Shown one piece after another: positions 13,314 through 22,709 of a stretch of DNA of 64,000 bases; positions within the stretch are counted from its first letter, which is position 1; every line of letters starts with the position of its first letter. The position numbers were made by a program, and so were the translations under genes. The DNA is taken from contig NZ_MQWB01000001.1 of NCBI RefSeq assembly GCF_002257665.1, positions 3,173,119 to 3,237,118 on the forward strand, in the 5' to 3' direction. The notes beneath the pieces are model-generated. The model was not told the DNA's origin. It saw only the letters and a list, made by a program, of their open reading frames with translations, and made no database searches. This DNA is from Rubricoccus marinus (GTDB taxonomy: Bacteria > Bacteroidota > Rhodothermia > Rhodothermales > Rubricoccaceae).

Positions 13314-14903
13314 ATGCCTCGCATCCTCTGGGCCGACGACGAGATCGATCTCCTCAAGCCGCACGTCCTGTTCCTCGAAGCCAAAGGCTACTCCGTCGAG
13401 ACCGTGAGCAACGGCGCCGACGCGGTGGACCGCGTCGAAAACGCCCGCTTCGACGTGGTCTTCCTCGACGAGCAAATGCCCGGCCTTGGCGGGTTGGACG
13501 CCCTAGAGCAGATCAAGGAGCGGCGGCCGGAGACGCCCGTCGTGATGATCACCAAGAGTGAGGAGGAGCACCTGATGGAGGACGCCATCGGGCGCAAGAT
13601 TGCGGACTACCTCATCAAGCCTGTCCACCCGAAGCAGCTGCTCCTCACGTGCAAGCGGCTTCTGGACGGCGACCGCATCCGCGGCGAGCAGGTCCAGCAG
13701 GATTACCTCCAGACGTTTGGGCAGATCTCGGCGCGCCTCGGCGGCTCGCTGGATGCCGACGAGTGGATCGACGTGTACCGTCAGCTCGTGCGCTTCGACC
13801 TGGAGCTTCAGGGCGGCGACGAGAGCGTGCGCCAGATCCTCGATGATCAGTACAAGGGCGCCAACGAGGCGTTCTCTCGCTTTATCGAGCGCGAGTACCC
13901 GGAGTGGATCTCGGCCTCCGCCAGAGGCGAGAAGCCGGGCGAGGCCCGCCCAACGATGAGCCACGACATCATCGGCCAGAGCGTGATGCCGCTGCTCGGC
14001 GACGTGGGCGGCAAGCCTGAGCGGCCCGTCGTCTTTTTCCTCATCGACTGCCTCCGCTACGACCAGTGGCTGCTCTTCGAGCGCACGCTGCAGCAGCACT
14101 ACGAGGTGGAAACGGACTGGCACTACTCCATCCTGCCCACGGCCACGCCGTACTCGCGCAACGCCATCTTCGGAGGCCTGTTGCCGGTCGACCTCGCCAA
14201 GCGCTTCCCGGACCGCTTCACCGCCGACGTGCGCGATGACGACGAGCCCAGCCTAAACGCGCACGAGGACGAGTTCCTCCGCGACCTGCTCGACCGCCGC
14301 CACCGGAAAGACATCCGGATGCGCTACGAGAAGATCAGCAACCAGAGCGACGGTGCCGCCTTCGCCGACCGTGTAACGGATCTCTTGCAGGTGGACCTCT
14401 CGGCCGTTGTCGTCAACTTCGTGGACATCCTCGCGCACTCGCGCTCGGACTCCCGCATCCTCCGCGAGATCGCGCCCGACGTACCCGCGTACCGCGGCCT
14501 CAGCACGACGTGGTTTGAGCATTCCTGGCTGGCCGACGCGTTCAAGCAGCTTTCCGAGCACGACTGTACGATCGTCATCACGAGCGATCACGGCGCCGTG
14601 CGGTCACTCAACGCGACCAAGGTGATCGGCGACCGCGAGACGAGCACGAGCCTGCGCTACAAGCACGGCCGCAACCTCAAGGTGGAATCTCGCGAGGCCA
14701 TCTTCGTCAAGGAGCCCGAGACGTACGGCCTGCCGCGTGCGGGCATCAACGAGAACTACGTCTTCGCGACCGAGGACCGCTACTTCGTCTACCCGACGAA
14801 CTACCACAAGTACCAGGAGCGCTACCGCGACTCGTTCCTGCACGGTGGCGTAAGCCTGGAGGAGATCCTGCTGCCCGTCGCCACGCTCCGCCCGAAAGGC
14901 TGA
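13314..14903 (+). CDS. porX: PorX-type response regulator with PglZ (alkaline-phosphatase-like) output domain
   Basis: 529 residues. An N-terminal receiver domain (1-120) has the acidic pair D8-D9, phospho-acceptor D52 (VVFLDEQMPG) and K102 (YLIKP). A helical linker (125-210) leads to a PglZ/alkaline-phosphatase domain with metal-site segments FFLIDCLRYDQW and ITSDHGAVRSL. This is the architecture of Porphyromonas PorX, which with PorY and a sigma factor controls type IX secretion genes; PorX has been reported to be a zinc-dependent phosphodiesterase acting on oligonucleotides. The two T9SS cargo proteins in this window (27498 and 33992) agree with an active T9SS. It ends with a very strong hairpin at 14929-14963. 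Confidence 0.92.
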   Translation: MPRILWADDEIDLLKPHVLFLEAKGYSVETVSNGADAVDRVENARFDVVFLDEQMPGLGGLDALEQIKERRPETPVVMITKSEEEHLMEDAIGRKIADYLIKPVHPKQLLLTCKRLLDGDRIRGEQVQQDYLQTFGQISARLGGSLDADEWIDVYRQLVRFDLELQGGDESVRQILDDQYKGANEAFSRFIEREYPEWISASARGEKPGEARPTMSHDIIGQSVMPLLGDVGGKPERPVVFFLIDCLRYDQWLLFERTLQQHYEVETDWHYSILPTATPYSRNAIFGGLLPVDLAKRFPDRFTADVRDDDEPSLNAHEDEFLRDLLDRRHRKDIRMRYEKISNQSDGAAFADRVTDLLQVDLSAVVVNFVDILAHSRSDSRILREIAPDVPAYRGLSTTWFEHSWLADAFKQLSEHDCTIVITSDHGAVRSLNATKVIGDRETSTSLRYKHGRNLKVESREAIFVKEPETYGLPRAGINENYVFATEDRYFVYPTNYHKYQERYRDSFLHGGVSLEEILLPVATLRPKG

Positions 14904-16533: not shown

Positions 16534-17211
16534 ATGGGTAGAGCGGAAGAACGGACTCTTCCTGTATCCTCTAGCAGACCCTCAGCCCTCCGCGTGGACG
16601 ATCAACACCATTGCCCGACGTGCGGCGCCCCGCTGCGCATCAAAAACCGCTTCGTGAAAGCGGTCACCTGCGAGTTCTGCCAGAACGTGGCCCTCTACGA
16701 CGGCGTCCGCCTGGACCCCACCGGCCGCACCGCTTCGCTCGCTCAACTCAAGAGCCCGCTCTACCTCGACGCCACCGGCCGCGTCGGGACGCACGCCTTC
16801 CGCGTTCTGGGCCGTCTCGTGTACGAGTACGAGGGCGGCACCTGGCAGGAGTGGTTCTTGGATATCGGCGGCGAGAAGCGCGCGTGGCTGATCGAAGACG
16901 AAGGCGCGTTCTCCCTCCTCCAGAAGCGGCCTCTTGCGCAGGCGCCTCCCTTCGCGGGCATCCAGGTCGGTGACGTGCTCACGCTGGCCGACCGCGAGGT
17001 GCGCGTCGACGAGGTCGGCGAAGCGACCATCGTCTCGGCCGAGGGACAGTTCGGCACGCTCATTCTCCCCGGCGAAGCCATCGCCTACGTCGACGGCGCC
17101 TCTGGGGACGAAGAGGTGGGCCTGGAGTACGGCGAGCGCGAGGTGGAGCTGTTCGTGGGCCGCCCCGTGGATCGCGCGGACGTGACCGTAGACCCCGACC
17201 CTTTCAGCTAA
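16534..17211 (+). CDS. Zinc-ribbon DUF4178 protein
   Basis: 225 residues. A zinc ribbon (C27-x2-C30 ... C46-x2-C49) precedes a DUF4178 domain recognisable by HAFRVLGRLVYEYEGGTWQEWFL and a following strand-rich region. It has no membrane segment. DUF4178 proteins have no known biochemistry but recur in operons with DUF350 membrane proteins and polyamine enzymes, which is exactly the arrangement here. It is the first gene of the operon 16534-22709, with a two-base gap to the next gene. The frame is also open from the ATG used, but the domain would be complete from the later residues around DDQHHCPTC. Confidence 0.8.
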   Translation: MGRAEERTLPVSSSRPSALRVDDQHHCPTCGAPLRIKNRFVKAVTCEFCQNVALYDGVRLDPTGRTASLAQLKSPLYLDATGRVGTHAFRVLGRLVYEYEGGTWQEWFLDIGGEKRAWLIEDEGAFSLLQKRPLAQAPPFAGIQVGDVLTLADREVRVDEVGEATIVSAEGQFGTLILPGEAIAYVDGASGDEEVGLEYGEREVELFVGRPVDRADVTVDPDPFS

Positions 17212-17213
17212 AC

Positions 17214-17444
17214 ATGGGACGCATCCTCCTCCTCGTCTTTCTCGGCGGCCTCGGTGCATGGGCGGCCAGTTCCGCTGCCAAAGGCCCGAGCGCCGTGCGG
17301 CTCGCCAACGCTGCGACAAGTGCGGCGCGGCCCACCCGCGCCTACTACGTGCCGATCTACGTCCCCCCACCGCCTCGTTCCAACCGGACCGGAAGCACGA
17401 GCGGTCCGCGCGTCGGCGGAGGCGGCCCCAGCTTCGGCAAATGA
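17214..17444 (+). CDS. Small exported or membrane-anchored protein, unknown
   Basis: 76 residues: an N-terminal hydrophobic segment (ILLLVFLGGLGAWAASSAA, 4-22) and a short tail rich in Tyr, Pro, Ser and Gly (YYVPIYVPPPPR, GGGGPSFGK). It is tightly placed inside the DUF4178 operon, with two bases to the gene before and a 4-base ATGA overlap with the gene after. That spacing is the main evidence that it is real. It may be a small membrane subunit of the system; no family is recognised. Confidence 0.6.
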   Translation: MGRILLLVFLGGLGAWAASSAAKGPSAVRLANAATSAARPTRAYYVPIYVPPPPRSNRTGSTSGPRVGGGGPSFGK

Positions 17445-18937
17445 TGGAGCTCTCCCCTCTTGACCGCGCGCTCCGCGCTGCTCGCCGCGGGCACAACGTC
17501 GCCGCCCGCACGCTTCTCGACGACATCCTCGCGGCGGATCCTGCCCACGAAGAAGCCCTTCTCTGGCGCGCTCGCGTGGCGGAAGACGATGCCGAGCGCG
17601 CGGGCTTTCTACAACGCGTGCTCGCGGTCAACCCGCAGAATGCGTGGGCCGCGCAGCAACTCGCCGCCTCTGGCGGAGCCGAGGCCGCCTCTGGCGCCAG
17701 AGGCCAGGATGGCGTCCCGGACACGCTGACGTGCTCCAACTGCGGCGGATCGGTAGAGGTGCACCCCGAGCGCGGCAGCAAAGCCGCGATGTGCACCTAC
17801 TGCGGCAGCGTGCTGGACCTCGGCACCACGCAGTTGGATGTCATCGGCCAGATGAACCCCAAGGTGGGGCCGAAGCACCCCATCAAGCCCGGCGACGAGG
17901 CCACGTTCTTCGGCGAGAACCACCTCGTGATGGGCTGGATGCGCTACAAGGGCTGGGACTCCGAGGACTCCTGGCACTGGGACGAGTGGCAGCTCGTCAG
18001 CGATTCCGGCGTGCCGCGCTACCTCTCGCACTCCTCCGACGAGGGCTGGACGATCCAGACGCCGATCCGGCCCACGCCAGAGGTTTCGCGCTCCGGCATC
18101 AAGCTGAAAGAGGGCAAGGCGGGAATCAAGGAGTCCGGCCCGGCCAAGATCACGGCCATGCAGGGCGAGTTCACATTCCGCCCACGCCTGGACAAAACGC
18201 TGAAGGTGATCGAGGCCTCTCGCGGCGACCAGCATTACAGCGCCGAGCTCACCGGCGACGAACTCGAAGTCGTGGGTGGCCCTCGCGTCCCGGAGCGCGA
18301 GCTCTGGGCAGCCTTCGGGCGTGAAGACAAGCTCCGCGAGATGGACGCGCGCGCCGAGCGAGCGCGCAAGAGGCGAAAGGCGCTCCGCAGCGCCGCTCTG
18401 CTGTGCTTTCTCGCCGCTGGCGCCTATTTCATGGGCATTGGCTGGGCCTCTTCCAAAGACGGCTCCACCGTTTCCAGCGGAACAACCGAGTTCGTCTCGG
18501 ACCTCAGCGACGTTCCTGTCCTCCCGAGCCGCAGCGAGTTCACCGCCGAGCGGCGCGACTCGCTCTCGCTCGGAACGGTAGAGGTGGTGGACGCGAGCGA
18601 GGTCTACGAGGTCGTCGTCGCGACGCCACATGATGGCTTGTACCCCTACCCAGCCGCCGAGGTCTACATCGAAGAGCCCGATGGCGACGTCGTCAATCTC
18701 GGGCGCCTGACCAACCGGAGTGACGGCTACGAACTGAAGCGGGCCTTCCGGCCCAACGCGGTGGGCTCGCACACGCTCCTGATGTTCGTGGAAGAGCGGA
18801 GCCCCGACCGCCTGACGTTTACCACGACCGTCCGTACCGGCATGTGGGACCCCGGCCCCTTCGCGGTGGCCTGTGGCCTCGCCGTCCTTCTCGGCCTCGT
18901 GCTGTTCCTCGCCGGCGGCTTCGGCCGCATCGACTAG
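17441..18937 (+). CDS. Large DUF4178 membrane protein with TPR-like start and zinc ribbon
   Basis: 498 residues. The order is a short helical TPR-like region (5-75), an Ala/Gly linker made partly from 9-mer copies (ASGGAEAASGARG), a zinc ribbon (C98-x2-C101, C118-x2-C121), the DUF4178 region (about 135-300, with WHWDEWQLVSDSG), a charged helix, one membrane helix (around SAALLCFLAAGAYFMGIGW), an extracytoplasmic beta domain and a second membrane helix at the C-terminus. The start ATG overlaps the previous stop (ATGA); a frame open further upstream runs through the small gene and is rejected. Likely the membrane scaffold of this operon; function unknown. Confidence 0.8.
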   Translation: MMELSPLDRALRAARRGHNVAARTLLDDILAADPAHEEALLWRARVAEDDAERAGFLQRVLAVNPQNAWAAQQLAASGGAEAASGARGQDGVPDTLTCSNCGGSVEVHPERGSKAAMCTYCGSVLDLGTTQLDVIGQMNPKVGPKHPIKPGDEATFFGENHLVMGWMRYKGWDSEDSWHWDEWQLVSDSGVPRYLSHSSDEGWTIQTPIRPTPEVSRSGIKLKEGKAGIKESGPAKITAMQGEFTFRPRLDKTLKVIEASRGDQHYSAELTGDELEVVGGPRVPERELWAAFGREDKLREMDARAERARKRRKALRSAALLCFLAAGAYFMGIGWASSKDGSTVSSGTTEFVSDLSDVPVLPSRSEFTAERRDSLSLGTVEVVDASEVYEVVVATPHDGLYPYPAAEVYIEEPDGDVVNLGRLTNRSDGYELKRAFRPNAVGSHTLLMFVEERSPDRLTFTTTVRTGMWDPGPFAVACGLAVLLGLVLFLAGGFGRID

Positions 18938-18955
18938 CGCCAGAGGCCTCTGGCG
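18938..18955. repeat. Stop-adjacent palindrome, tail-to-tail form CGCCAGAGGCCTCTGGCG
   Basis: The two 9-mers face the other way (sharing AGGCCT at the centre). The palindrome starts at the base following the TAG of the DUF4178 membrane gene, inside an operon, so it cannot be an absolute terminator. Confidence 0.8.
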
Positions 18956-18982
18956 TTCCTTTCCCCTTCCGCTCTCGCTCCT

Positions 18983-19279
18983 ATGCGCGCCTTCCGCTCC
19001 ACCCTCGCCCTCGCGCTGACCACGCTCGCCGCCGCTCCCGCCTTCGCGCAAGAGGCCGCGGGCGACGGCAGCCTCCAGGTTTCCGTCATCGTCGCGACGA
19101 TCCTCTACGGCGCCATCGGCATCCTGCTGACGCTCGCGGGCTACTTCGTCTTCGACAAGATCGTGGGCCTGGACCTCAAGCGCGAGCTCGTGGAGGACCA
19201 GAACACGGCCATCGGCATCATGCTCGCGGGCGTGTTTATCGGGTGCTCCATCGTTGTTGCGGCCGTGATGCTGTCGTAA
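18983..19279 (+). CDS. DUF350 integral membrane protein (YjfL-like)
   Basis: 98 residues. An N-terminal signal or membrane segment (to about residue 23) is followed by two further helices, VIVATILYGAIGILLTLAGYF and NTAIGIMLAGVFIGCSIVVA, joined by a charged cytoplasmic loop (DKIVGLDLKRELVEDQ). DUF350 proteins come as single or double repeats; this is a one-repeat form. In E. coli the relative YjfL lies beside a PspA-like protein and a glutathionylspermidine-synthase-like enzyme, so the link of DUF350 with envelope stress and polyamine enzymes is seen elsewhere. It stands between the DUF4178 gene and the spermidine-synthase-like gene. Confidence 0.85.
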   Translation: MRAFRSTLALALTTLAAAPAFAQEAAGDGSLQVSVIVATILYGAIGILLTLAGYFVFDKIVGLDLKRELVEDQNTAIGIMLAGVFIGCSIVVAAVMLS

Positions 19280-19291
19280 CCCTGCCCCGTT

Positions 19292-19311
19292 GGCCTCTGG
19301 CGCCAGAGGCC
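19292..19311. repeat. 20-bp palindrome between DUF350 and the SpeE-like gene
   Basis: The head-to-head 9-mer palindrome extended by G/C on each side, 12 bases after the DUF350 stop. Confidence 0.8.
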
Positions 19312-19328
19312 GACCCGCTTCGTCTGTC

Positions 19329-20993
19329 TTGCCCCCTGACCTCGACACGCTGACTCCGGACCTCCCGCGCCCCGCCTCTGGCGACGGCGCGCGCATCGGC
19401 GTGCCGAGTGTGGCCGTAGCGCCAGAGGCCGAGCGCGAGCTGACCGACCGCCAGGTGCGCGTGCTGCTCACGTCCGTCTTGGTCGTGGCGACGTGCGGGC
19501 TGCTCTACGAGCTCATCGTCGGCACGCTCTCGTCGTACCTGCTGGGCAACTCGACGCTGCACTTCTCGCTCACCATCGGCGGGTTCATGACCGCCATGGG
19601 CGTCGGCTCGCTCGTCTCGCGCCGCATCCACGGGGATCCGCTCGTCTGGTTCGTGGGCGTGGAGTTGGCCATCGGCGTGGCCGGCGGGTGCTCCGCGGCA
19701 GCGCTCTACTGGGCGTACAGCTACGCGCCTCTGGCGTACCACGCGGTCATGGCGGGCGCCGTCTTGGTGATCGGCGTGCTCGTCGGCCTGGAGATCCCGC
19801 TCGTGGCGCGCGTGCTGGACATGGCCGGGCGCCAGAGGCGCGATACCGTCGCGAACGTGCTCGCGGTCGATTACCTCGGCGCGCTGCTCGCGGCGCTGGC
19901 GTTCCCGCTCGTGCTGCTGCCCACGCTCGGCGTGCTACGGACGGCGTTCGTGACGGGCGCCATCAACCTCGGCGTGGTCGTGGCGTGCCTGTGGGCGTTC
20001 CGCAAGATGCTCCGCCGCCAGAGGTCCTACCGGCCGCTGGCGCTGGCGACGCTCGCGCTCGGCCTGCCTCTGGCGGCGGGCGCCGTCGGCGCGGGCTGGC
20101 TGGCGGACGTGTTCGAGGCCAAGCTGTACCGCGCGCCGATCCTGTTCACCGAGCAGTCGCCGTACCAGCGGCTCGTGGTCACGCGCTCGCGCCAGGGCGA
20201 CACGCGCCTCTTCCTCGATGGCGCGCTCCAGTTCGCGACCAGCGACGAATACCGCTACCACGAGGCGCTCGTGCACCCCGCGATGGCGCTCGCCGCGCGG
20301 CGCCAGAGGGTCCTGATTCTGGGCGGCGGCGACGGCCTCGCCACGCGAGAGGTGCTGAAGTGGCCCGGGGTGGAGTCGGTCACGCTCGTCGACCTCGACC
20401 CAGCCGTGACCGACCTCGCGCAGCGCCACGCGGCCATTCTGGAGGCCAATCAGGGCGCGCTCTCGGACCCCCGCGTCGAGATCATCAACGCCGACGCGTA
20501 CCGCTTTATCGAGGACTCGCCTCTGGCGTTCGACGTCGTCCTCGTGGACCTGCCCGACCCCAACCACGAGTCGCTGGCGAAGCTCTACAGCCGCCCGTTC
20601 TACGAACTCCTGCGCCAGAGGCTCGGCGCGGGCGCGATGGTCTCGGTTCAATCCACATCGCCCTACTTCGCGCCTGAGGCCTTCTGGAGCATCGTCGCCA
20701 CGGCCGAGGCTGCGGACCTCCACCCTCTTCCCTACCACATCTACGTTCCCAGCTTCGGCGACTGGGGCTTTTTCCTGGGCTCGACGCACGCGGTCAACCC
20801 CGAGCGCTTTGCCGCCCGCCTCGCGCCTCTGGCGAGCGCCGCCGAGCCGCTGCGCTTCCTCACGCCAGAGGCCTTCGCCGCCGCGCAAACCTTCGCGCCG
20901 GACCTTACGCGCCCCGCCGGCGTGGAGGTCAACACGCTGGACGATCCGGTCCTGCTCGACTACTACCAGAAGGGGTGGGCACGATGGCAGTAG
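19329..20993 (+). CDS. Membrane-embedded spermidine/spermine synthase-like aminopropyltransferase
   Basis: About 554 residues. The N-terminal half (about 30-260) is hydrophobic with roughly seven membrane helices; the C-terminal half is a spermidine-synthase fold: substrate strand LFLDGALQFATSDEYRYHEALVHP, nucleotide motif VLILGGGDGLATREVLK, acidic VTLVDLDP, and the catalytic-region Asp segment VVLVDLPDPN. It should transfer aminopropyl groups from decarboxylated SAM, which the adjacent SpeD can supply. The start is uncertain: TTG 19329 is used here, GTG 19401 is possible, and longer frames begin in the palindrome. It overlaps speD by 10 bases. Eleven exact 9-mer copies are inside, many in loops. 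Confidence 0.85.
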   Translation: MPPDLDTLTPDLPRPASGDGARIGVPSVAVAPEAERELTDRQVRVLLTSVLVVATCGLLYELIVGTLSSYLLGNSTLHFSLTIGGFMTAMGVGSLVSRRIHGDPLVWFVGVELAIGVAGGCSAAALYWAYSYAPLAYHAVMAGAVLVIGVLVGLEIPLVARVLDMAGRQRRDTVANVLAVDYLGALLAALAFPLVLLPTLGVLRTAFVTGAINLGVVVACLWAFRKMLRRQRSYRPLALATLALGLPLAAGAVGAGWLADVFEAKLYRAPILFTEQSPYQRLVVTRSRQGDTRLFLDGALQFATSDEYRYHEALVHPAMALAARRQRVLILGGGDGLATREVLKWPGVESVTLVDLDPAVTDLAQRHAAILEANQGALSDPRVEIINADAYRFIEDSPLAFDVVLVDLPDPNHESLAKLYSRPFYELLRQRLGAGAMVSVQSTSPYFAPEAFWSIVATAEAADLHPLPYHIYVPSFGDWGFFLGSTHAVNPERFAARLAPLASAAEPLRFLTPEAFAAAQTFAPDLTRPAGVEVNTLDDPVLLDYYQKGWARWQ

Positions 20994-21565
20994 ATCCTCG
21001 GTCTTCAGTGGATGCCCTCCAGCGCACCTCCGTAGGGGCGAGGCTCGCCTCGCCCGCATTCGGAGCGCTGAGCGAGGGTGAGACAAACCCCGCACCTACC
21101 AAACCGCTCTCGCCTCTGGCGCCAGAGGCAAGCGCGAGCCAACCGGCCGGAGGCCACCACCTGCTCGTCGATTTCTGGGTGGCCGACGCGGAGCCGCTGC
21201 GCCGCGTGGCGACGTGGGAGACGCTGCTGCCGGACGCCTGCCGCGAGGCGGGCGCAACCGTGCTCGGCGGGCGCTTCCACCAGTTCGAGCCCGAAGGGGT
21301 AACCGGCATCGTCCTCCTGGCCGAGTCGCACGCGAGCCTCCACACGTGGCCCGAAGCCGGGCTCGTGACGCTGGACGTGTTCACCTGCGGCGCGCTCGAT
21401 GCGCACGCCATCGTAGATCGCATCCGAGACGCCCTCGCGCCCGTACGTGAGCGCATTACCGCCGTCGACCGGGGCGACCGTGCCCCCGACGCCGCGCGCA
21501 GCGCCAGAGGCCCGGCCTCTGGCGAAGCCCTGCCAAACAGCGCCTCTGGCGTACCCTCTCCGTAA
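20984..21565 (+). CDS. speD: S-adenosylmethionine decarboxylase proenzyme with repeat-derived extensions
   Basis: The SpeD core (about 57-165 of 193 residues) has the self-cleavage site AES115H with H120 in SLHTWPE and C135 in DVFTCG; cleavage before S115 would create the pyruvoyl group that decarboxylates SAM for spermidine synthesis. It overlaps the SpeE-like gene by 10 bases and supplies its substrate. The first 56 residues have no SpeD counterpart: they are translated from the structured element at 21031-21100 plus a 9-mer palindrome at 21112-21129 (LAPEA). The last 30 residues are similar repeat-derived sequence (ARGPASGEA). No in-frame start codon lies after the element, so the extension appears to be made. 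Confidence 0.88.
   Translation: MAVDPRSSVDALQRTSVGARLASPAFGALSEGETNPAPTKPLSPLAPEASASQPAGGHHLLVDFWVADAEPLRRVATWETLLPDACREAGATVLGGRFHQFEPEGVTGIVLLAESHASLHTWPEAGLVTLDVFTCGALDAHAIVDRIRDALAPVRERITAVDRGDRAPDAARSARGPASGEALPNSASGVPSP
21031..21100. repeat. Structured repeat-like element inside the speD 5' region
   Basis: A 70-base segment bounded by GTAGGGGCG on the left and CGCACCTAC (complement GTAGGTGCG) on the right. It contains a 9-bp hairpin, GGGCGAGGC (21036-21044) with GCCTCGCCC (21047-21055). The near-inverted ends and the internal hairpin look like a REP/MITE-like intergenic unit, here read through in frame by speD. Only one copy is in this window. Confidence 0.5.
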
Positions 21566-21593
21566 ACCAACCGCCCCGAGTGGGCACCGACAC

Positions 21594-22709
21594 ATGGGAC
21601 TCATGGACCGGCTCCGCAACGAGCTCATCGACGTCATCGAGTGGACCGATGACAGCCGCGACACCATCGTGTGGCGGTTTCCGCGCCACGGCAACGAGAT
21701 CAAGTCCGGCGCGATGCTGACGGTCCGCGAGGGCCAGACGGCCGTGTTCGTGGACGAAGGCCAACTCGCCGACGTGTTCACGCCCGGCACATACAAGCTG
21801 ACCACGGCCAACATGCCGATCCTGACGACGCTCGAGAGCTGGAAGTACGGCTTCGAGAGCCCGTTCAAGGCCGAGGTCTACTTCGTCAACACGCGGCGGT
21901 TTACCAACCAGAAGTGGGGCACGAAGAACCCCATCATGCTCCGCGACCCGGAGTTCGGCCCGACGCGCCTGCGCGCCTTCGGCACGTTCACCTTCCGCGT
22001 GACGGACGCGGACACGTTCCTGACCGAGGTCGTGGGCACGAGCGGCGACGTGAGCACGCCAGAGGTTACGGACCACATCCGTAACCTCGTCGTCTCTCGC
22101 TTTACTGAGGCCCTCGGCGAGGCCAAGCTGGCCGCGTTGGACCTGGCCGCCAACTACTCCGAGCTCGGCGGCGCACTGGGCGGCAAGATGGAGGAATCCA
22201 TGGAGGCCTATGGCGTCGAGCTGAAGGACCTGGTGGTGGAGAACATCTCGCTCCCGCCAGAGGTGGAGAAGGCAATGGACGAGCGCACCAGCATGGGCGT
22301 GATCGGCAACTTGGGCGCGTACACGCAATTCCAGACCGCGAAGGCGATGGAGGCTGCGGCGTCCAACCCCGGCGGAGGCGCCGCCGCCGCGGGCGTCGGC
22401 CTGGGCGCAGGGATGGCGATGGCTCAGGGCATGGCGGGGAGCTTTATGCAGCCACAAGGCCAGCAGCAAGCCTCTGGCGCCACGCCGCCGCCCCCTCCTC
22501 CTGCGGCCCCGAGCTTCCACGTCAGCAAAGATGGCCAGACCGCCGGCCCGTTCACAATGGATCAGCTCAAAGCGCAAGCGGCCTCAGGCGAACTGACGCG
22601 CGAGAGCCACGTGTGGCGCGAGGGGATGGACGGCTGGAAAACGGCGGGCGAGGTCGAGGCCATGCAGCCCGTCTTCGGCGCCGTGCCTCCGCCGCCGCCC
22701 GCTGCATAG
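21594..22709 (+). CDS. SPFH (virion-core-protein-like) protein with C-terminal GYF_2 domain
   Basis: 371 residues. An SPFH/band-7-type domain (about 1-225) starts DRLRNELIDVIEW and includes VREGQTAVFVDEGQLADVF and FTFRVTDADTFL; a helical region and a Gly/Ala/Met-rich linker follow; the last 60 residues are a GYF_2 domain (FHVSKDGQTAGPFTMDQLK ... SHVWREGMDGWK). SPFH proteins form membrane-associated oligomers that organise membrane microdomains; GYF_2 is a small peptide-binding fold. It has no N-terminal membrane helix. It is the last gene of the DUF4178-DUF350-SpeE-SpeD operon, 28 bp after speD. The ATG at 21594 was chosen at the domain start. Confidence 0.88.
   Translation: MGLMDRLRNELIDVIEWTDDSRDTIVWRFPRHGNEIKSGAMLTVREGQTAVFVDEGQLADVFTPGTYKLTTANMPILTTLESWKYGFESPFKAEVYFVNTRRFTNQKWGTKNPIMLRDPEFGPTRLRAFGTFTFRVTDADTFLTEVVGTSGDVSTPEVTDHIRNLVVSRFTEALGEAKLAALDLAANYSELGGALGGKMEESMEAYGVELKDLVVENISLPPEVEKAMDERTSMGVIGNLGAYTQFQTAKAMEAAASNPGGGAAAAGVGLGAGMAMAQGMAGSFMQPQGQQQASGATPPPPPPAAPSFHVSKDGQTAGPFTMDQLKAQAASGELTRESHVWREGMDGWKTAGEVEAMQPVFGAVPPPPPAA

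Follow-up and report, generated by a model that had tools for sequence, protein, structure and literature searches.

Operons of six to seven genes in which a fusion of seven transmembrane helices to a spermidine synthase (SpeE) occurs with DUF350, DUF4178, a lipoprotein and a PspA-CesT pair are described in main-text passages of Ravi et al. 2024 (PMC11237479), where aminopropylation of other substrates is suggested and Li et al. 2019 (Biochem J 476:2579) is cited. The present analysis concerns a seven-gene operon at positions 16,534 to 22,709 of a 64,000-nucleotide stretch of the Rubricoccus marinus genome (contig NZ_MQWB01000001.1, positions 3,173,119 to 3,237,118; the whole stretch is referred to as the window). 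It resembles the second group of operons in those passages in bringing together a SpeE fusion, DUF350 and DUF4178, and differs in carrying an SPFH-GYF_2 protein and a small one-helix carrier protein where the second group has PspA-CesT and a 'Ctha_1186' lipoprotein. Since this kind of operon is already published, the gene association proposed by a first-pass annotation of the window is real but not new. What is new here is the likely acceptor, the lysine that ends a tail encoded in the operon, a feature unmentioned in the main-text passages of Ravi et al. 2024 (PMC11237479). On balance, we lean towards reading the operon as a dedicated protein-modification system in which SpeE would aminopropylate the C-terminal lysine of a tailed envelope protein.

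The SpeE of the window was used as a query, which returned 570 confirmed relatives, and 80 loci were kept. These span Bacteroidota, Acidobacteriota, Pseudomonadota, Bacillota, Nitrospirota, Gemmatimonadota and other phyla, ruling out an operon unique to the R. marinus genome and bearing out the expectation of the first-pass annotation that the families co-occur elsewhere. The usual gene order is SPFH-SpeD-DUF4178-DUF4178-[small gene]-DUF350-SpeE. Counts below refer to a set of 127 loci in which SpeE is accompanied by DUF4178 or DUF350, picked by similarity to the window SpeE. Near SpeE in this set were DUF350 (121 loci), DUF4178 (101), SpeD (70) and SPFH (42). The gene combination is far from chance. 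Its distribution is sporadic within the window's own lineage (6 of 60 relatives), with matches in 24 of 345 genomes of the window's phylum and in 40 of 398 genomes from the phylum to which a Delftia-type reference genome belongs.

A Gly/Ser-rich tail with a terminal lysine is encoded in 125 of the 127 loci, and the two loci without one (L016 and L062) are both cut by contig ends. A Gly/Ser-rich open reading frame (ORF) ending in [GH]K is present in 118 loci; other endings include GR[VI]K (GRVK or GRIK) in six alphaproteobacterial loci, two of which (L026 and L174) belong to the same genome, and GGGPRVGK at L093. At each locus the gap before DUF350 encodes a different tiny one-helix protein, and the last two residues are HK or GK in nearly all of them. 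Where this small gene is lacking, the Gly/Ser-rich tail is fused to the C-terminus of DUF4178, ending in SSGGGHK in Betaproteobacteria, SSGGGLSSGK in Clostridia and SSGGAHK in Psychrobacter, so an apparent absence of the tail from Betaproteobacteria and Clostridia proved wrong. Fused and separate tails were never found at one locus (33 fused, 60 separate, none with both). Carriers thus comprise one-helix micro-proteins, DUF4178 C-termini, DUF4247 proteins and lipoproteins. The DUF4247 protein at L010:8091-8519 (PF14042, 2.4e-12) ends in RGGGFGFGK; in actinobacteria, the DUF4247 partners of SpeE form the Rv2599 group. The carrier at L163 is a DUF4178 variant, while those at L160, L230 and L047 are lipoproteins without a Pfam family. 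Within the window's own family the carriers vary in length (75, 76, 116 and 118 residues) and their tail ends are alike (SGGGPSFGK, SGGGPSSGK and SGGGYSGGK).

The seven genes of the R. marinus operon all lie on the forward strand, in the order given by the first-pass annotation, as established from reading frames and Pfam and NCBIfam matches (window coordinates):

16534 to 17211, + strand: DUF4178 protein of 225 residues with an N-terminal zinc ribbon and without a membrane helix (PF13785, 1.7e-14)
17214 to 17444, + strand: 76-residue one-helix protein with an Arg/Gly/Ser-rich tail ending in GGGGPSFGK, the proposed substrate (from sequence)
17441 to 18937, + strand: membrane DUF4178 protein of 498 residues (PF13785, 1.2e-7, and translation)
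18983 to 19279, + strand: DUF350 small membrane protein of 98 residues (PF03994, 5.9e-12)
19290 to 20993, + strand: SpeE membrane aminopropyltransferase (Spermine_synth, 2.9e-33; NF002956), with helices at about 19446-20129 and the SpeE domain at about 20139-20990
20975 to 21565, + strand: SpeD, a class 1b AdoMet decarboxylase (PF02675, AdoMet_dc, 1.6e-32; TIGR03330 above cut-off)
21594 to 22709, + strand: SPFH/Band_7_1 protein with a C-terminal GYF_2 domain (PF13421, 1e-97; PF14237, 4.2e-19)

Two starts were corrected relative to that annotation, the second DUF4178 gene to 17441 and the SPFH gene to 21594, where an ATG is the most likely start codon; the start of SpeE is uncertain (TTG at 19290 or later). 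The 76-residue protein matches no Pfam or NCBIfam family, but its ORF is a real gene, since relatives have homologous or equivalent genes. Its terminal lysine codon (AAA, 17439-17441) is followed by a TGA stop at 17442-17444, which forms a four-base overlap (ATGA) with the ATG of the membrane DUF4178 gene at 17441. The latter protein comprises a weak N-terminal TPR-like stretch, a zinc ribbon, DUF4178 and two hydrophobic helices, and is untailed in this operon. The DUF4178 protein at 16534-17211 was modelled by AlphaFold2 as all-beta (predicted local distance difference test score, pLDDT, 85.9), and a Foldseek search with this model gave no significant PDB match and weak calycin-like matches only. 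Homology of DUF4178 to E. coli YjfK (DUF2491) was unsupported by hhalign. In a Pfam scan the GSP_synth ATP-grasp domain was absent from the seven genes. A CesT/Tir-PspA pair was likewise absent from the operon, the sole PspA match of the genome (G000:C1:3079892) lying outside the window. Assignment to a defence system was discarded, PADLOC having given one weak methyltransferase-type match only. Upstream of the operon, positions 13314-14903 read like a fusion of a response regulator to a PglZ/alkaline-phosphatase-like domain (PorX-like).

The association of the tail with SpeE was examined in several ways. Gly/Ser-rich [GH]K tails were found in 131 of 3368 ORFs within 600 nucleotides of core genes and in 19 of 13519 ORFs more than 2.5 kb away (p about 2e-71, a descriptive value as ORFs are not independent). 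When tails ending in [GH]X were compared by last residue, K (131) was the most frequent near core genes with R second (23), while far away K numbered 20 and R 115. A tail-SpeE link predicts that genomes with an orphan SpeE should encode the tail far away, at a DUF4178 locus, and this was the case in 8 of 9 testable genomes, with L135 left out as truncated. Furthermore, in a phylogeny of 78 SpeE proteins with near-identical sequences removed, the penultimate residue (H or G) required 2 changes and carrier kind (separate, fused, or long/lipoprotein) required 6. The dipeptide tracks the enzyme through carrier switches. Among the positions that discriminate best between HK and GK enzymes, three (384, 390 and 393, alignment numbering) fall in the loop that follows the catalytic aspartates, a result confounded by phylogeny.

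These associations would fit binding too, and the strongest rival to aminopropylation of the tail is that SpeE, a chaperone or a protease uses the K-tail for docking or regulation, with SpeE modifying a lipid or a small envelope metabolite. The DUF350, SPFH and PspA contexts hint at membrane stress, in keeping with such a role. Binding, however, requires neither a lysine at the very last position across different kinds of carrier nor the switch to GG or GS ends observed beside ATP-grasp enzymes, and we consider this explanation unlikely.

That switch was seen in a sister system. Carriers beside ATP-grasp GSP_synth genes end in GG or GS and never in K (0 of 12, versus 125 of 127 SpeE loci, p 1.4e-15). 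In E. coli, YjfM ends in ARGHWGG and YgiB in SSRSMGG, and their partners YjfC and YgiC are annotated as peptide-spermidine ligases, after Pederick et al. 2023. As proposed for the R. marinus operon, polyamine chemistry on a peptide goes in E. coli with a neighbouring envelope protein that has a Ser/Gly/Arg-rich tail, and the yjf operon, already mentioned in the first-pass annotation, also contains DUF350. The chemistries differ, with an ATP-grasp amide ligase and GG or GS tails in E. coli, and proposed aminopropyl transfer of the S-adenosylmethionine (SAM) type and a GK tail in R. marinus. Thus, carboxylate ligation goes with a Gly or Ser end and amine transfer with a Lys end. Hybrid loci also occur, at L157:2882-4625 and L159:3496-5242, in which membrane SpeE and SpeD are found with an ATP-grasp gene of the GSP_synth family and with a carrier whose tail ends in TRSYGG.

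The C-terminal lysine of Braun's lipoprotein (Lpp) is linked to peptidoglycan, and by this precedent an L,D-transpeptidase might join the tail lysine to peptidoglycan while SpeE acts elsewhere. Many carriers are lipoproteins or outward-tailed, as such anchoring would have it; the 76-residue protein has the C-terminal lysine and lacks a lipobox. We regard anchoring as improbable given that the tail tracks SpeE clades and loci, Clostridia included, that the sister ATP-grasp tails end in GG or GS, and that no transpeptidase was prominent among recurrent neighbour clusters, although anchoring and aminopropylation could be combined.

The enzyme itself matched NF002956 (PRK03612) over its full length at 622.6 bits (curated cut-off 472). 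Its AlphaFold2 model (mean pLDDT 95) contains seven membrane helices, in agreement with the approximately seven that had been anticipated, followed by a SpeE domain, and resembles the Thermus and Pyrobaculum aminopropyltransferases in Foldseek (1uir, 1.2e-17; 3anx). An alignment of 86 homologues showed that the residues of the decarboxylated-SAM site are kept, ruling out loss of donor residues, which the first-pass annotation had named as a possible refutation. Equivalents of E. coli Q33, Q54, Y63, D88, D140, D158, D161 and Q191, whose donor and catalytic roles are familiar from SpeE structures, are 98-100% conserved, and the E108 equivalent is replaced by D in 91% of sequences. In the same alignment the IGPGES loop of E. 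coli SpeE gives way to another sequence, and PSFGEWG, whose Trp is invariant, stands in place of PTYYGG; the acceptor side is therefore unlike that of E. coli SpeE.

Mean K+R content was 9.0 for loops 2-3, 4-5 and 6-7 and 1.6 for loops 1-2, 3-4 and 5-6, a bias seen in 86 of 86 sequences. With positive-inside charges, a cytoplasmic N-terminus and seven helices, the SpeE domain is therefore predicted to lie outside the cytoplasm. Carriers of the lipoprotein and DUF4247 types face the same side, and most tails should too. Buried acidic residues at alignment positions 37, 88, 131 and 157 of the helices are 92-100% conserved and could suit passage of a cationic donor across the membrane, which is the least certain step.

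SpeD retains the pyruvoyl Ser (ESH), His and Cys, with AESHASLHTWPE...FTCG aligned to 2iii/1tlu (T. maritima S63, H68 and C83). The genome (97.7% complete) encodes one SpeE and one SpeD, and its sole Orn_Arg_deC match scores as LysA; no ornithine or arginine decarboxylase of the two pyridoxal phosphate (PLP) families Orn_Arg_deC and OKR_DC_1 was found, and pyruvoyl arginine decarboxylase was not searched for. Ordinary spermidine synthesis therefore looks unlikely. Were SpeE nonetheless to convert a free diamine into spermidine or aminopropylagmatine, the tailed protein being incidental, this would agree with a fold and residues that fit the Thermus triamine/agmatine aminopropyltransferase, with the NCBIfam label of polyamine aminopropyltransferase and with SpeE being the only one in the genome. 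Set against this are the missing PLP decarboxylases, the acceptor-side motifs unlike those of canonical SpeE, and a conserved lysine tail that would go unexplained. In the study by Li and colleagues, thousands of AdoMet decarboxylase genes reportedly lie beside a membrane spermidine synthase fusion with DUF350 clustered, and the fusion is said to have failed to complement a spermidine synthase mutant, leading to the proposal of a polyamine-independent role. Those clusters share SpeD, membrane SpeE and DUF350 with the present operon; the acceptor was reportedly left open there, whereas the proposal made here is the lysine at the end of a tail that the operon itself encodes. We judge free-diamine synthesis to be very doubtful as the function of the operon.

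Aminopropylation of the tail would proceed as follows. On the evidence of its sequence, SpeD would decarboxylate SAM in the cytosol, and the seven-helix part of SpeE may move the cationic decarboxylated SAM across the membrane, the weakest step in the scheme. The tail and the SpeE domain would meet outside the cytoplasm, where SpeE would add the aminopropyl group of decarboxylated SAM to the lysine epsilon-amine of the 17214-17444 protein, giving N-epsilon-aminopropyl-lysine. The lysine side chain ends in a butylamine arm resembling putrescine, the usual acceptor. DUF4178, DUF350 and SPFH probably act as partners in assembly or in sensing stress, and the modified envelope protein would bear an additional cationic amine at its tip. 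In diatom silaffins (PMC4557024), which are Ser-rich and exported, the epsilon-amines of lysines carry propyleneamine units; these differ from the modification proposed here in being eukaryotic and in having internal lysines and N-methylated chains, and no relationship to the carriers is claimed. In 61 loci a flavin amine oxidase (PF01593), often starting with a twin-arginine-like signal, is encoded no more than 600 nucleotides from SpeE; downstream examples include L053:11495-13165, L006, L015 and L074, among others. This enzyme may oxidise the proposed aminopropyl-lysine, and those with a twin-arginine-like start would also be outside the cytoplasm.

The sequence data show the genes, the conserved lysine tail, the intact donor site, the covariation of enzyme and tail, and the predicted fold and topology. 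The first-pass annotation is supported in part. Its proposal that SpeD feeds a membrane aminopropyltransferase with an envelope acceptor holds. It also suggested that the system may respond to envelope damage with SPFH as organiser; SPFH lies near SpeE in only 42 of the 127 loci. Where lipid, protein and membrane-bound polyamine had all been entertained as acceptors, the evidence now favours a protein, namely the small neighbour that had been listed but left unused.

Several observations weigh against modification of the tail by SpeE. SpeD is non-adjacent in 57 of the 127 loci. Several loci of the set are close relatives or near-duplicates, and small-ORF starts are uncertain. The tail pattern was spotted by eye first and counted afterwards. 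In the orphan-SpeE genome that fails the prediction (L166), a pair of DUF4178 genes is present but no tail can be recognised. Part of the penultimate-residue result stems from the common ancestry of enzyme and carrier, and at L157 and L159 this SpeE is accompanied by an ATP-grasp gene and by a carrier that ends in GG. With regard to sidedness, the positive-inside rule is a heuristic, tails of the small one-helix carriers are net positive, and flanking charges leave the topology of fused DUF4178 tails undecided. Extracytoplasmic catalysis would, moreover, need the donor outside, and we know of no exporter of decarboxylated SAM.

A separate feature of the window is a perfect 16-bp palindrome, CCTCTGGCGCCAGAGG, dispersed at positions such as 631, 6510, 17688, 19294, 21113 and 61099, and also contained in the N-terminal extension of SpeD. 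There are 33 matches in the window at up to 2 mismatches versus 0.07 expected. Inside genes the palindrome translates as PLAPEA, GLWRQR or ASGARG, and no copy occurs in the loci retrieved from the same genus and family. It is a HIP1-like highly iterated palindrome.

A membrane homologue of spermidine synthase present in many phyla has been without a known acceptor since it was deemed unlikely to make spermidine. More tentatively than the above reading of the operon, we propose a new bacterial post-translational modification in which a SpeE domain, fed through its own seven helices, aminopropylates the C-terminal lysine of a dedicated envelope tail outside the cytoplasm, occurring across many phyla in parallel to ATP-grasp spermidine ligation on GG and GS tails. 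If true, this would be a new protein modification, polyamine chemistry would be tied to the bacterial envelope by two parallel chemistries acting on lysine tails and on GG/GS tails, and overlooked micro-proteins together with the tails of DUF4178 and DUF4247 proteins would be its substrates.

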